Below are positions 24,004 through 32,094 of a DNA stretch of 64,000 bases, one piece after another. Below the pieces are notes generated by a model, which saw only the letters and a program-made list of their open reading frames with translations, was not told the DNA's origin and did not search any database. How positions within the stretch are numbered: the first letter of the stretch is position 1; every line of letters starts with the position of its first letter. A program made the translations under genes and the position numbers. Origin of the DNA: Spongiibacter thalassae (GTDB lineage Bacteria; Pseudomonadota; Gammaproteobacteria; Pseudomonadales; Spongiibacteraceae); assembly GCF_012272835.1 (NCBI RefSeq), contig NZ_JAAWWK010000002.1, forward strand, positions 711,451 through 775,450, read 5' to 3'.

Positions 24004-25497
<1,494 letters not shown>

Positions 25498-25498
25498 A

Positions 25499-25547
25499 TT
25501 TGCGGTAGTCCGCAAAATTGGGGAAAATGCAGTCCCGAATTTTGCGG
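25499..25547 (+). promoter_or_regulatory. Mutually exclusive hairpins in the sucC leader
   Basis: Stem A pairs TTTGCGG (25499-25505) with CCGCAAA (25510-25516). Stem B pairs CCGCAAAATT (25510-25519) with AATTTTGCGG (25538-25547), a perfect 10-bp arm extended inward by GGG/CCC. The two stems share 25510-25516 and cannot form together. Further downstream, GTGC/GCAC and AGCGG/CCGCT arms continue to about 25612. No T-tract follows. A cis-acting leader RNA is the simplest reading. Confidence 0.55.
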
Positions 25548-25639
25548 CAACATCGCAATGTGCAAAGGGAGCGGGCCAATCGCACTGACAGGGATTCAGT
25601 CCGCTTAACACTTCCACAGACCGAGATGGTAATTCCAAC

Positions 25640-26806
25640 ATGAACCTTCACGAGTACCAAGGCAAACAACTGTTTGCTGAATACGGGCTGCCTGTGTCCA
25701 AAGGCTATGCCTGCGACACCCCGGAAGAGGCCGCAGCAGCAGCGGAAAAAATTGGCGGAGACAAGTGGGTTGTAAAAGCCCAGGTTCACGCCGGTGGCCG
25801 CGGTAAAGCTGGTGGCGTCAAACTGGTGAGCAGCACCGACGAGATCAAGGCCTTTGCCGAGAACTGGTTGGGCAAGAATCTGGTCACGTATCAGACAGAC
25901 GAAAATGGCCAACCCGTTTCCAAGATTCTGGTTGAGTCGTGCACAGATATCGACAAAGAGTTGTATCTGGGTGCAGTTGTCGATCGCGGTACCCGTCGCA
26001 TCGTTTTCATGGCGTCCACCGAAGGTGGCGTAGAGATCGAAAAAGTCGCCGAAGAGACTCCAGAGAAGATTCTCAAAGCGGTTATCGATCCCCTGACTGG
26101 CGCTCAGCCATACCAGGGCCGTGAGTTGGCGTTCCAGCTGGGCCTGAACCAGACCCAGGTGAAGCAGTTCGTCAATATCTTCATGGGACTGGCGAAAATG
26201 TTCCAGGAGAAAGACCTGGCGCTGCTCGAAATCAACCCGCTGGTTATCACCTCTGAAGGTAATCTGCACTGCCTGGACGCGAAAATCGTCATCGACGGCA
26301 ATGCAATTTACCGCCACAAAGACCTGCAAGCCATGCACGATCCCTCACAGGAAGACGAGCGTGAAGCACGTGCGGCTGAGTGGGACCTGAACTACGTTGC
26401 CCTGACCGGTAACATCGGTTGTATGGTAAACGGTGCTGGCCTGGCCATGGGCACCATGGACATCGTTTCTCTCCACGGTGGTTTCCCCGCTAACTTCCTC
26501 GACGTAGGCGGCGGCGCGACCAAAGAGCGTGTTACTGAAGCCTTCAAAATCATCCTCGAAGACAGCAACGTAAAAGCCGTGCTGGTTAACATCTTCGGCG
26601 GTATTGTGCGCTGTGACCTGATTGCCGAAGGCATCATCGGTGCAGTGAAGGAAGTAGGCGTCAGCGTACCCGTTGTGGTTCGTCTGGAAGGTAACAACGC
26701 TGAGCTGGGCTCAAAACTGTTGTCAGAATCAGGCCTCGACATTATTGCGGCCACCAGCCTGACCGACGCGGCTCAGCAAGCTGTTAAAGCAGCGGGGGGT
26801 AAATAA
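25640..26806 (+). CDS. sucC: Succinyl-CoA ligase, beta subunit
   Basis: The 388-residue ATP-grasp subunit begins [23 protein letters not shown] and has [20 protein letters not shown], the nucleotide-binding segment, and [18 protein letters not shown] plus [18 protein letters not shown] in the CoA-ligase domain. With SucD it converts succinyl-CoA to succinate with substrate-level phosphorylation. TAA overlaps the sucD ATG (TAATG), a sign of coupled translation for an equimolar complex. Confidence 0.98.
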
Positions 26807-27678
26807 TGGCTATTCTGATTAATAAAGACACGAAGGTAATCTGCCAGGGTTTCACTGGTGGTCAGGGTACTTTCCACTCAGAGCAGGCGATTGCCTACGG
26901 TACTAAAATGGTCGGCGGTGTTACCCCGGGCAAAGGCGGTACCGAGCATCTGGGCCTGCCGGTTTTCAACACCGTGAAAGAAGCGGTTGATGCAACCGGT
27001 GCGGAAGCCTCTGTTATCTACGTGCCCGCAGCATTCTGTAAGGATTCTATCCTGGAAGCTGCTAACGCAGGTATCAAACTGATCGTCTGCATCACTGAGC
27101 ACATTCCGGTTATGGATATGCTTGAGTGCAAAGTGAAGTGTGACGAGCTGGGTGTGCGCCTGATCGGGCCAAACTGCCCCGGTGTTATCACTCCCGGTGA
27201 ATGTAAAATCGGCATCATGCCTGGTCACATCCACCTGCCTGGCAAAGTGGGTATCGTTTCCCGCTCCGGTACACTGACCTACGAAGCGGTCAAGCAGACC
27301 ACTGACTTCGGTTTTGGCCAGTCTACCTGTGTCGGTATCGGCGGTGACCCGATTCCCGGTTCTAACTTCATCGACATTCTGGAAATGTTCGAGAAAGATC
27401 CCGCGACTGAAGCCATCGTTATGATCGGTGAAATCGGCGGATCTGCTGAAGAAGAAGCGGCGGCCTACATCAAGGCTAACGTGACCAAGCCTGTTGTGTC
27501 TTACATTGCCGGTGTAACCGCACCTGCAGGTAAGCGTATGGGCCACGCTGGTGCCATCATCTCCGGTGGTAAAGGTACTGCCGATGAGAAGTTTGCCGCT
27601 CTGGAAGACGCTGGTGTTAAAACCGTGCGTTCACTGGCGCAAATTGGCGATGCATTGAAAGAAGTTACTGGCTGGTAA
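26806..27678 (+). CDS. sucD: Succinyl-CoA ligase, alpha subunit
   Basis: The 290-residue subunit has the CoA-binding Rossmann domain ([18 protein letters not shown]), [20 protein letters not shown], and the phosphorylated His in [25 protein letters not shown]. It ends the TCA cluster and is followed by a strong terminator. Confidence 0.98.
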
Positions 27679-27695
27679 TTCCGGCCTGACTTGAG

Positions 27696-27721
27696 AAAGG
27701 CGGCTTTGGCCGCCTTTTTTT
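27696..27721 (+). terminator. Terminator of the TCA cluster
   Basis: AAAGGCGGC (27696-27704), TTTG loop, GCCGCCTTT (27709-27717) and further T, 17 bases after the sucD stop. Confidence 0.93.
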
Positions 27722-27808
27722 ATGTCTGTTGATCCGCACAGCGAGGTTTTACAATGCTGGTATTGGGTCAATAACTGAATTAGTATTCACATCTTGATAG
27801 AGGCCGGA

Positions 27809-28420
27809 ATGGTTTACCGAGAAACCCCTGATATCGCGCGTCGCAAGGCAGAATTGCGCGAACGGCTGCTGCAGAGTGCAGAGAGTCTGGTTCGCTCCGG
27901 TGGCTTCAAGGCACTGACCATACAAGCCCTGGCGGCCGATGCGGGGGTGAGTGTTGGCTCGGTATACCGTTATTTCAAGAACAAGGATCAGCTGGCAACA
28001 GAGGTTTTTGAGCATGCGACTCGCCGTGAATTGCGCGCGGTCGCGGCGGCGCTGACATCGGCAGAGAGCCCGGCGAGCTGCATCGCTGCCGGAACAAGGG
28101 TGTTTGCCGAGCGGGCATTTATGGCCCCTCGCTTCGCCTGGGCATTGATCGCAGAGCCTGTTGATGCGGCGGTCGATGTGGCACGGCTGGAATATCGCCG
28201 CAGTTACACTGCCTTGTTTGAGCGTGTCGTTGCTCGAGGGGTGGAACAGGGGCAGTTTGCCCCCCAGCGACCGGGTGTGACCGCTGCGGCCTTGGTAGGT
28301 GCGCTGGCAGAGAGTCTGCTTGGGCCACTGCGGGCCTCGGAAGAACAAAGTGAAGCGGAATTAATCAACGAATTGTGTCGTCTTTCGCTGCGAGCTGTGG
28401 GGGGCGACCCCCAGCCGTGA
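27809..28420 (+). CDS. TetR-family transcriptional regulator
   Basis: The 203-residue protein has an N-terminal helix-turn-helix in FKALTIQALAADAGVSVGSVYRYFKNKDQLATEVF, the TetR consensus; the C-terminal ligand domain starts near residue 70. ATG at 27809 has AGAGG just upstream; TTG at 27794 is an alternative. It ends 13 bases before an AidB-like dehydrogenase and probably controls it, perhaps in response to an acyl-CoA or fatty acid. Confidence 0.87.
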   Translation: MVYRETPDIARRKAELRERLLQSAESLVRSGGFKALTIQALAADAGVSVGSVYRYFKNKDQLATEVFEHATRRELRAVAAALTSAESPASCIAAGTRVFAERAFMAPRFAWALIAEPVDAAVDVARLEYRRSYTALFERVVARGVEQGQFAPQRPGVTAAALVGALAESLLGPLRASEEQSEAELINELCRLSLRAVGGDPQP

Positions 28421-30124: not shown

Positions 30125-30176
30125 CCCTGTCAGGTCCTGAAGAGACCGCTGATTTCAGACTTTACAGGTGATAACA

Positions 30177-32094
30177 ATGTCGACAGTTGAGAAAGAGACT
30201 CTCGGGTTTCAGACTGAAGCAAAACAAATGCTGCAGTTGATGATCCACTCCATGTACAGCAACAAGGAAATTTTCCTTCGCGAGTTGGTATCCAACGCCT
30301 CAGACGCCGCCGACAAGCTTCGCTTTGAAGCACTGGCCGACGGCAGCCTGTTTGAAAATGACCCCGATTTGCGTGTGCGCATCGATATTGACGAAGACGC
30401 GAGCACGATCAGTATCAGCGACAATGGCATTGGTATGTCGCGGGACGAGGTGATTGCCAATCTCGGTACGATAGCTCGTTCCGGCACGGCAGAGTTTCTG
30501 AAAAATCTGGCGGGGGACAAGAAGAAGGACTCCCAGCTGATTGGCCAATTCGGGGTCGGGTTCTACTCGGCATTTATCGTTGCTGATCGGGTTGAGGTAT
30601 TCACCCGTCGCGCCGGGGCGCCCGCCGATCAGGGCGTGCATTGGGAATCCACTGGCGAGGCCGACTTCTCCATTGAAAGCTGCACCCGTGAAGAGCGCGG
30701 CACTACGGTAGTATTGCATCTGCGTGACGACGACAAGGAATTTGCCAACGACTGGCGGGTGCGCAGCATTATTAAAAAGTACTCGGACCACATCGGTATT
30801 CCAGTACAGATGCTGAAGAAAGACGCTGCCGAGGACAAAGAGGAGGATGCAGAGTCAGAGGCGAAGGCGCCGGAATTCGAAACCATTAACTCTGCGACGG
30901 CGCTATGGACACGTTCGCGTAATGACGTCAGCGACGACGAATACAAGGCCTTTTACAAGCACGTTAGCCACGACTTTGTCGACCCGCTGACCTGGAGTCA
31001 CAACAAAGTGGAAGGCAAGCTGGAATACACCAGCCTGTTGTACCTGCCGACCCAGCCGCCAATGGATATGTGGAACCGCGATGCCGCCCGCGGGCTTAAG
31101 CTCTATGTCCAGCGCACCTTTATTATGGACGACGCGGAGCAGTTCCTGCCGCTGTACTTGCGCTTTGTAAAAAGGGGTGGTGGACTCCAACGACCTGTCA
31201 CTGAACGTGTCCCGTGAGATTCTGCAGCAGGACCCCGCCGTTGACGCGATGAAATCGGCCCTGACCAAGCGCGTTCTCGACATGCTGGCCAAATTGGCCA
31301 AGAACGACAGCGAAAAATATCAGACCTTCTGGAAAGCCTTTGGCCAGATCCTCAAGGAAGGTCCGGCTGAGGATTTCAGCAACCGGGAAAAAATCGCCAA
31401 ATTGCTGCGCTTTGCGACCAGCCACGACGACAAGCCCGAGCAGACCCATTCGCTGGAGGACTACGTCAGCCGAATGAAGGAAGGGCAGAAAGATATCTAC
31501 TACGTTGTTGCAGAAAACCACCGCACCGCCGCCAGCAGCCCGCACCTGGAAGTGTTCCGCAAAAAGGGCATCGAAGTGCTGCTGTTGTCTGACCGTGTCG
31601 ACGACTGGCTGATGAACCACCTGTCTGAGTTTGACGGTAAGGCCTTCAAGGACGTTGGTCGTGGCCAGCTGGACCTGGGTGACCTGGAAGACGAAGCGGA
31701 GAAAAAGGCGAAGGAAACCCTGGCCGAAGAGCACAAGGACCTTATTGAACGGGTAAGCAAGGTACTTGAGACCAAGGTGCAGGAAGTGCGTGCCACGGCT
31801 CGCCTGACCGAGTCTCCCGCGTGTCTGGTGGTTGGTGACCACGACATGGGTGCACAAATGCGCCGTATCCTCGAAGCGGCAGGCCAGGCCGTGCCGGAGA
31901 GCAAGCCTATTTTTGAGCTGAACCCCGAGCACCCGCTGGTGCAGAAGCTGGACAATGAACCCGACGAGGATCGCTTTGCCGATCTGGTGGGAATTCTGTT
32001 CAGCCAGGCTCATCTGGCCGAGGGCGCACAGTTGGATGACCCCGCTGATTACGTGCACAAACTGAATAAGTTACTGTTGGAATTGAGCGCGTAG
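30177..32094 (+). pseudogene. htpG: Chaperone HtpG (Hsp90), interrupted by a +1 frameshift
   Basis: Two frames together give one complete HtpG of about 638 residues. The first (ATG at 30177, AGGTGA upstream) has the GHKL ATPase domain: [47 protein letters not shown]. It runs correctly to LPLYLRFVK, then at about 31169-31178 the sequence GTAAAAAGGGG shifts frame. The second frame resumes exactly with the Hsp90 middle-domain motif [16 protein letters not shown] and continues to the normal C-terminus. Removing one A from the A5 run restores [11 protein letters not shown]. As read, the product stops at 31217 after about 346 residues. A sequencing or assembly error in the homopolymer is as likely as a true mutation, since both halves and the promoter are otherwise intact. 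Confidence 0.93.

Follow-up and report, generated by a model that had tools for sequence, protein, structure and literature searches.

A putative internal promoter overlapped by a predicted hairpin of read-through RNA in the lpd–sucC gap of Spongiibacter thalassae

The sdh and suc genes of Spongiibacter thalassae stand in the order sdhA, sdhB, sucA, sucB, lpd, sucC, sucD (NCBIfam), within a window of 64,000 nucleotides (contig NZ_JAAWWK010000002.1), which is the whole stretch of DNA that was analysed. From the lpd stop at 25497 to the sucC ATG at 25640 there is a gap of 142 bases (25498-25639), and it is this gap that concerns us (Table 1). A scan of 25000-28000 found five terminator-like sites, against 2.8 in shuffles: one lies 3' of sucD on the plus strand (27693-27720), and none lies on the plus strand in the lpd–sucC gap. 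On the minus strand, a 7-bp stem discussed below scored as terminator-like (25516-25499). Further along, htpG appears as two overlapping ORFs (30168-31217 and 31177-32094) that cover HtpG profile positions 2-308 and 310-614; this split is an apparent frameshift, either real or a sequencing error.

Table 1. Genes and predicted elements in and around the lpd–sucC gap (positions in the window)
Feature	Position	Strand	Basis
lpd, dihydrolipoyl dehydrogenase	24025..25497	+	TIGR01350, 526 bits; ORF as listed, true start maybe further in
Predicted -35 TTGCGG; also opens the rod at its 5' end and supplies most of the 7-bp stem's first arm	25500..25505	+	TTGCGG in 28/29 loci, TTGCGC in 1; invariant in alignment A1
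Rod 5' arm; runs from the -35 across the spacer to the first -10 base	25500..25523	+	pairs with 25534-25558; co-varies
Predicted -10 GAAAAT, 17 bp past the -35; first base closes the 5' arm, the rest lies in the hairpin loop	25523..25528	+	NANAAT at 17 bp in 28/29 loci
Predicted transcription-start region of promoter-born sucC mRNA, about 25535	25532..25538	+	placed from the -10 position
Rod 3' arm, at and after the predicted start	25534..25558	+	25498-25562 is predicted to fold with 23 bp at -30.3 kcal/mol
Second hairpin, CACTGACAG in its loop; 5' UTR of both transcripts	25569..25606 (25569-25576 with 25599-25606)	+	predicted fold, pair counts
Probable ribosome-binding region CGAGATGGTAAT, upstream of the sucC start codon (ATG, 25640)	25622..25633	+	relatives carry a GGTAA-type motif at this position; putative binding
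sucC, succinate-CoA ligase beta subunit	25640..26806	+	NF001913, 609 bits

Twenty-one genomes represent the family of the window (f1); the gap was matched in 20 of them, the exception being a genome that is 70% complete (G020). The 20 loci reduce to 15 distinct leaders, 13 from the window's genus and two from a sister genus, which together form alignment A1. By sequence identity (96%) the closest sucC belongs to Spongiibacter pelagi KMU-158, among 80 named loci from which records very near the window were possibly omitted; its leader (L066) is identical to L016, from a member of the window's genus. The sister family (f226) has a sucC match in nine of ten genomes, and two of its leaders recur in named records: L164 is identical to L096 (a Spongiibacteraceae MAG), and L214 to L082 (a Cellvibrionales MAG). 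The 15 aligned leaders share one layout: they open with an invariant ATTTGCGGT, followed by a variable stretch, a near-invariant GGGAAAAT and a second variable arm. When a covariance model of this leader (R1) was run on 390 genomes from the order, 25 matched at E <= 0.1, 18 in the window's family and 7 in the sister family, all at sucC leaders; the search filters are strict and weak copies may escape, and two footprint-bearing genomes of the sister family (G507, G629) went unmatched. A second match, seen in seven genomes only, is in each case the palindrome read on its other strand.

One feature unites the two families, and it is promoter-like. The pattern TTGCGN-N17-NANAA(T/G) is present in 29 of 29 loci (20 of the window's family, 9 of the sister family), always at 17 bp. 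The -10 hexamer in the window's family is GAAAAT in 18 loci, GACAAT in one and GAAAAG in one (L018); in the sister family it is GAGAAT in five, GAAAAT in two, CAAAAT in one and CAGAAT in one. The sequence between the two hexamers varies among relatives. Certain leaders of the sister family keep the footprint with an incomplete hairpin: TTGCGG...GAGAAT is retained in L214/L082, where the 3' arm is absent, and the footprint is retained in L166 and L211, whose 5' arm has its GGG disrupted. Hexamers 16-18 bp apart and conserved in relatives are one mark of a σ70-type promoter, and the gap contains such a pair; a good match to the consensus hexamers is another, and here the match to the E. coli consensus is weak, 3/6 at the -35 and 4/6 at the -10, and a consensus promoter scan of 25000-28000 returned no promoter-like site. 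The footprint points to a probable internal sucC promoter at 25500-25528, its activity presumed. With the -10 at 25523-25528, transcription would be expected to start near 25535. Across the window's own genome, the motif on the -10 side at three or fewer mismatches occurs at 30 places including the sucC site, versus 17 for the reversed control, a comparison that tells little. A literature search, judged by titles, returned no internal sucC promoter from this order.

Similar footprints occur outside the two families. Among 132 distinct lpd–sucC leaders from elsewhere, TTG-N17-GANAAT was found in eight (shuffled mean 0.31; none of 300 shuffles reached eight); at a spacing of 18 the same leaders gave three, all from one genus (2/300 shuffles), at 15 they gave two (19/300), and at 16 and 19 none. 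The eight divide into seven of 67 in one leader subset (0/300) and one of 53 named leaders (L072; 43/300 shuffles had as many), and the pattern was found in none of the 12 leaders that carry the described sucC RNA, RF01759. They span six families (f4, f14 twice, f30 twice, f37, f224 and the family of HTCC2143), and five of the eight had already been spotted when the pattern was settled. The 58 leaders gathered after the pattern was first used gave three at spacing 17 and three at spacing 18, each reached by none of 300 shuffles; among these later leaders, L251 and L254 come from families already seen. A preference for 17-18 bp is as expected of a σ70-type promoter. The spacing background is not perfectly clean: in a 68-leader set, with L072 added by hand and spacings of 10-25 scored, spacings 10, 12, 15 and 24 each gave two leaders, which 4-9 of 300 shuffles equalled. 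A leader of another family, L028 (f2), has ATTTGCGGACCTGGTCCGCTCTAGGGATAGC, with the same -35, a 17-bp spacer and GATAGC, which falls outside the strict pattern; no matching long hairpin was seen there by eye.

The preliminary description of this DNA had drawn attention to the RNA of the gap instead, and to two stems in particular: TTTGCGG (25499-25505) with CCGCAAA (25510-25516), and CCGCAAAATT (25510-25519) with AATTTTGCGG (25538-25547). Both stems are where it placed them, fold predictions agree that one arm is common to both so that they are mutually exclusive, and the further arms it noted before the sucC ribosome site are those of the second hairpin in Table 1. The predicted fold of the whole gap has an energy of -50.7 kcal/mol, where shuffled sequences average -36.27 (SD 3.73; z -3.87; 0 of 200 shuffles as good). 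In these models the two stems are not evenly matched: taken by itself the 7-bp stem is worth -9.3 kcal/mol, whereas the longer one reaches -21.6 and, once extended outwards (together, the rod), -30.3; pair probability in the full gap is 0.0 for the 7-bp stem and 0.98-1.0 for the long stem except at its single mismatch. Compensatory changes had been expected in both stems. The long stem does co-vary, as set out below; the 7-bp stem shows no pair in which both sides have changed, and its first arm is invariant in the 15 aligned leaders. It is beyond the reach of co-variation because that arm never varies.

A shared arm suggested an attenuator or riboswitch, in which the 7-bp and longer stems would be two ligand-dependent folds controlling sucC. 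Besides the mutual exclusion, this reading can draw on the short stem being the first to appear in predicted folds of short transcript prefixes, on six or seven of its seven pairs being possible, with G-U allowed, in every distinct leader of the window's family (15), and on a probability of 0.58 in one distant relative, L072. The folds of the family itself speak otherwise: the probability of the short stem is 0.00 in 14 of its 15 leaders and 0.09 in the remaining one, no pair is doubly changed, and in the eight distinct leaders of the sister family just five or six of the seven pairs can form at all. A riboswitch of the usual design needs a terminator or a sequestered ribosome site; no terminator-like site was found on the plus strand of the gap, and no large hairpin covers its ribosome site. 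No Rfam family matches the gap (window searched at the gathering cut-offs; 25300-25800 at E <= 10). The first arm and the shared arm moreover coincide with the promoter-like footprint. A start near 25535 would leave the whole of the 7-bp stem upstream of it, together with the 5' arm of the 10-bp stem. A transcription start downstream of 25547 had been named in advance as grounds against a switch; the predicted one falls short of that point, and by lying between the stem arms it would have the same consequence. The switch design proposed at the outset thus finds little in the leaders to sustain it: a metabolite-sensing reading is unlikely, no metabolite sensing is needed, and two ligand-dependent folds built from these particular stems seem to us quite improbable.

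The suggestion that a sucC-associated motif exists in Pseudomonas was sound: RF01759 is found in the lpd–sucC gap of Pseudomonas canadensis (L074, 83.7 bits). Whether the gap of the window is that same motif was put to a covariance-model search, and there was no match to RF01759 in 25300-25800 even at E <= 10, although the gap is likewise directly upstream of sucC; the gathering cut-off, 50 bits, was not reached in the window. Searches of seven related loci at E <= 10, of 57 relatives and of 14 control genomes also returned no match. Among 390 genomes of the order, 15 exceeded the cut-off, all in one family (f21), and the element lies there in the lpd–sucC gap; in 369 genomes of the class none did, with one weak partial match. 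The window and the tested relatives being without a match, the two lineages therefore have different leaders at the same place. That the gap holds a diverged member of RF01759 is barely credible, for all that it shares the same gap, the same order and a similar stretch (GACGGUAA / GAUGGUAA) before the ATG: the hairpins and conserved blocks differ, and no intermediate between the two kinds of leader was recognised among those compared.

The rod is another matter. For the 65 bases around it, z lies between -2.9 and -8.2 in every one of the 15 distinct leaders from the window's family; z is -2 or below in one of eight distinct leaders of the sister family (L212, -3.1), and not in L072. In pair counts on the alignment, 90% of cells in the inner stem are paired and two pairs are doubly changed (A-U to G-C, A-U to U-A). 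The pair-count control is mixed: the covariation score of the whole structure was reached by 6 of 500 shuffles, and its four doubly changed pairs by 104 of 500. A second test swapped arms between species. Arms folded with their own partners gave -31.27 kcal/mol versus -26.36 when swapped, and 4 of 20,000 permutations were as good, in 10 representatives drawn from 14 distinct arm pairs, the clade-mates of L007 omitted; the corresponding counts are 60 of 20,000 within the genus (8 representatives) and 0 of 20,000 with all 14 distinct arm pairs. By part, the inner and outer portions gave 43 and 33 of 20,000, and within the genus 226 and 962. Set arm against arm, 22-23 of 24 positions pair in four of the seven equal-length representatives and 19-20 in the others, a count that omits the window's own arms, which are unequal in length. 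This co-variation supports selection on pairing; it rests on few independent events, and template-switch mutation could mimic it.

Two other accounts of the rod have to be weighed here. One locates its function in the DNA, as an operator: a dimeric repressor or activator would bind the arms around the -10 and control the sucC promoter, and RNA pairing would be incidental. The repeat is indeed centred on the -10/start region, and several leaders of the sister family keep AAATTCGG...CCGAATTT; however, the arms change together instead of holding one recognition sequence, the distance between them varies (L002 versus L007), and the exact palindrome occurs in 6 of 57 genomes, once in each, so that no regulon is visible at that stringency. 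Those exact copies are at sucC in five genomes of the window's family and at one place in G041; the other genomes of the family, the window's included, have none. The G041 copy (L300), in a genome outside the window's family, reads AAATTCGG-N11-CCGAATTT. We regard an operator as unlikely.

The other account grants function to the promoter alone. The hairpin would have arisen by inverted-repeat mutation (template switching) and would be kept near-perfect by mutation, not selection. Quasi-palindromes are known to be corrected by template switching, and confinement of the strong rod to one family, with mostly a short version or none in the sister family, is compatible with it. Yet a rod that is strong in every one of the 15 leaders of its family is, in our judgement, more persistent than would be expected of a neutral by-product, and this explanation too has a low probability.

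If the promoter is where the footprint puts it, the two transcripts of sucC would differ. A start between the arms of the 10-bp stem means that promoter-born sucC mRNA, which holds the 3' arm only, would therefore form neither of the two hairpins first reported; in the model, the paired structure can only form in RNA reading through from lpd. Predicted folds of the promoter-born 5' UTR are not unusually structured in the leaders scored from the window's genus (z -1.6 to 0.0 in 8 scored of 13) or the sister genus (both -1.7); in the sister family z runs from -4.0 to 0.0 (8 scored). Pairing that straddles the start was compared along 25 leaders, and the share of positions as strong as the predicted start ranged from 0.01 to 0.96: it was 0.15 or below in six leaders of the genus, in f4, both f30, f224 and one of three f13 leaders, and above 0.15 in the sister genus (L019, L020), the sister family, L072, f14, f37 and the other two f13. 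We make no claim from this that start-straddling hairpins recur. By eye, L248 (f224) and L254 (f14) have terminator-like hairpins with T-runs directly 3' of the predicted sucC -10, reading GGCGC...GCGCC-TTTTTT and CGCGCC...GGCGCG-TTTTTT; in L248 the 5' arm starts inside the -10, and the full hairpin would thus be possible only in read-through RNA. In L030 and L251 (f30) the predicted -10, GACAAT, sits within a hairpin 5' arm (GACAAT...GTTGTC); these two hairpins differ in sequence yet remain paired, with the strongest cross-start pairing three or fewer bases from the predicted start.

These features are best brought together by treating the lpd–sucC gap as a composite operon boundary: an internal sucCD promoter, overlapped by a hairpin that exists in read-through RNA only and is probably a boundary for mRNA processing or stability. 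We hold this reading to be somewhat more probable than its negation. That is, a σ70-type promoter (25500-25528, start about 25535) would allow sucCD to be transcribed apart from sdh–sucAB–lpd; in the window's family the DNA from -35 to -10 would double as the 5' arm of the rod, with the 3' arm starting at about the start site; only RNA reading through from lpd would hold both arms and fold into the rod; promoter-born sucC mRNA, starting between the arms, would be rod-free; and on read-through mRNA the rod would most probably govern how the message is processed or stabilised, by an RNase III-type cut or by protection of the 3' end, so that the output of SucAB–Lpd would be set apart from that of SucCD. 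Promoter activity, start site, read-through, processing role and nuclease are all things that we infer. Processing hairpins of the RNase III type have some 20 or more nearly continuous RNA base pairs, and the predicted fold of 25498-25562 has 23.

A further step would make the overlap of promoter and hairpin a regulatory device that marks sucC mRNA by its origin, the read-through message being cut or stabilised at the rod and the promoter-born one escaping. This is a tentative and rather doubtful extension. If it is true, the ratio of SucCD to SucAB–Lpd follows the balance of two transcription routes, without a ligand or a protein regulator. Other families of the order, in which a hairpin or terminator overlaps the predicted sucC start, may have come to the same logic independently.

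Downstream of the rod, the leader is plainer. The loop of the second hairpin holds CACTGACA, invariant in the 15 aligned leaders; 98% of cells are standard over the seven pairs counted, and two pairs are doubly changed. As a co-varying RNA element it was rejected, as the arm-swap test gave no signal within the genus (10061 of 20,000) and a weak one when the sister genus was included (1316 of 20,000). Several leaders of the sister family have, by eye, hairpins of other sequence at about this position. The second hairpin is most simply a 5' UTR stem. In the fold of the gap neither large hairpin pairs the ribosome site, and only a 3-bp hairpin is nearby. A small ORF of 16 codons (ATG TGC AAA ... 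TAA, 25558-25608) lies within the sucC leader; a leader peptide was considered and set aside, since neither frame nor length is kept in the 20 loci of the family (9-23 codons; the ATG is absent in L019 and L020).

The wider interest of the gap is of several kinds. It corrects a tempting reading, in which stems that share an arm are taken for a riboswitch, and it indicates a probable internal promoter, shared by a whole family, in an operon of central metabolism. Should the overlap prove functional, it would be a simple route by which read-through and promoter-born mRNA are treated differently. It is also a warning for RNA-motif scans: conserved, co-varying intergenic stems can contain promoter elements.

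Among known systems, the sucA and sucA-II motifs are similar to the element described here in being candidate cis RNAs of Proteobacteria named after the adjoining gene; the sucA RNA motif is RF01070. The sucA-II motif is RF01758, entered for Pseudomonadales in PMC2864571. Both differ from the present case in being named for sucA, not sucC, and have no match in the gap of the window. Table 1 of PMC2864571 marks the sucC RNA, RF01759, as certainly an RNA (Y), as cis-regulatory (Y) and as ambiguous for riboswitch status (?), from gamma-Proteobacteria. Like our leader, it is a cis element between lpd and sucC in the same order, with a hairpin 5' of the sucC ribosome site; it differs in hairpin and conserved blocks, its covariance model finds no match in the window, and it was not found in the window's family. 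A parallel in operon kind is sdhCDAB-sucABCD of E. coli. There the junction concerned is sdhB–sucA, not lpd–sucC, where the relevant portion of PMC6393394 describes an internal promoter, termination, and processing by RNase III and RNase E, and that of PMC5371410 describes an RNase III cut 5' of sucA; both cite Cunningham and Guest (1998). The promoter is not described in those portions as lying within a hairpin arm, and processing in the window is putative. The likeness is that the same kind of operon has, by these accounts (PMC6393394, PMC5371410), an additional internal promoter together with RNA processing, and because of this precedent processing or 3'-end protection would, by analogy, be the likeliest role of the rod.
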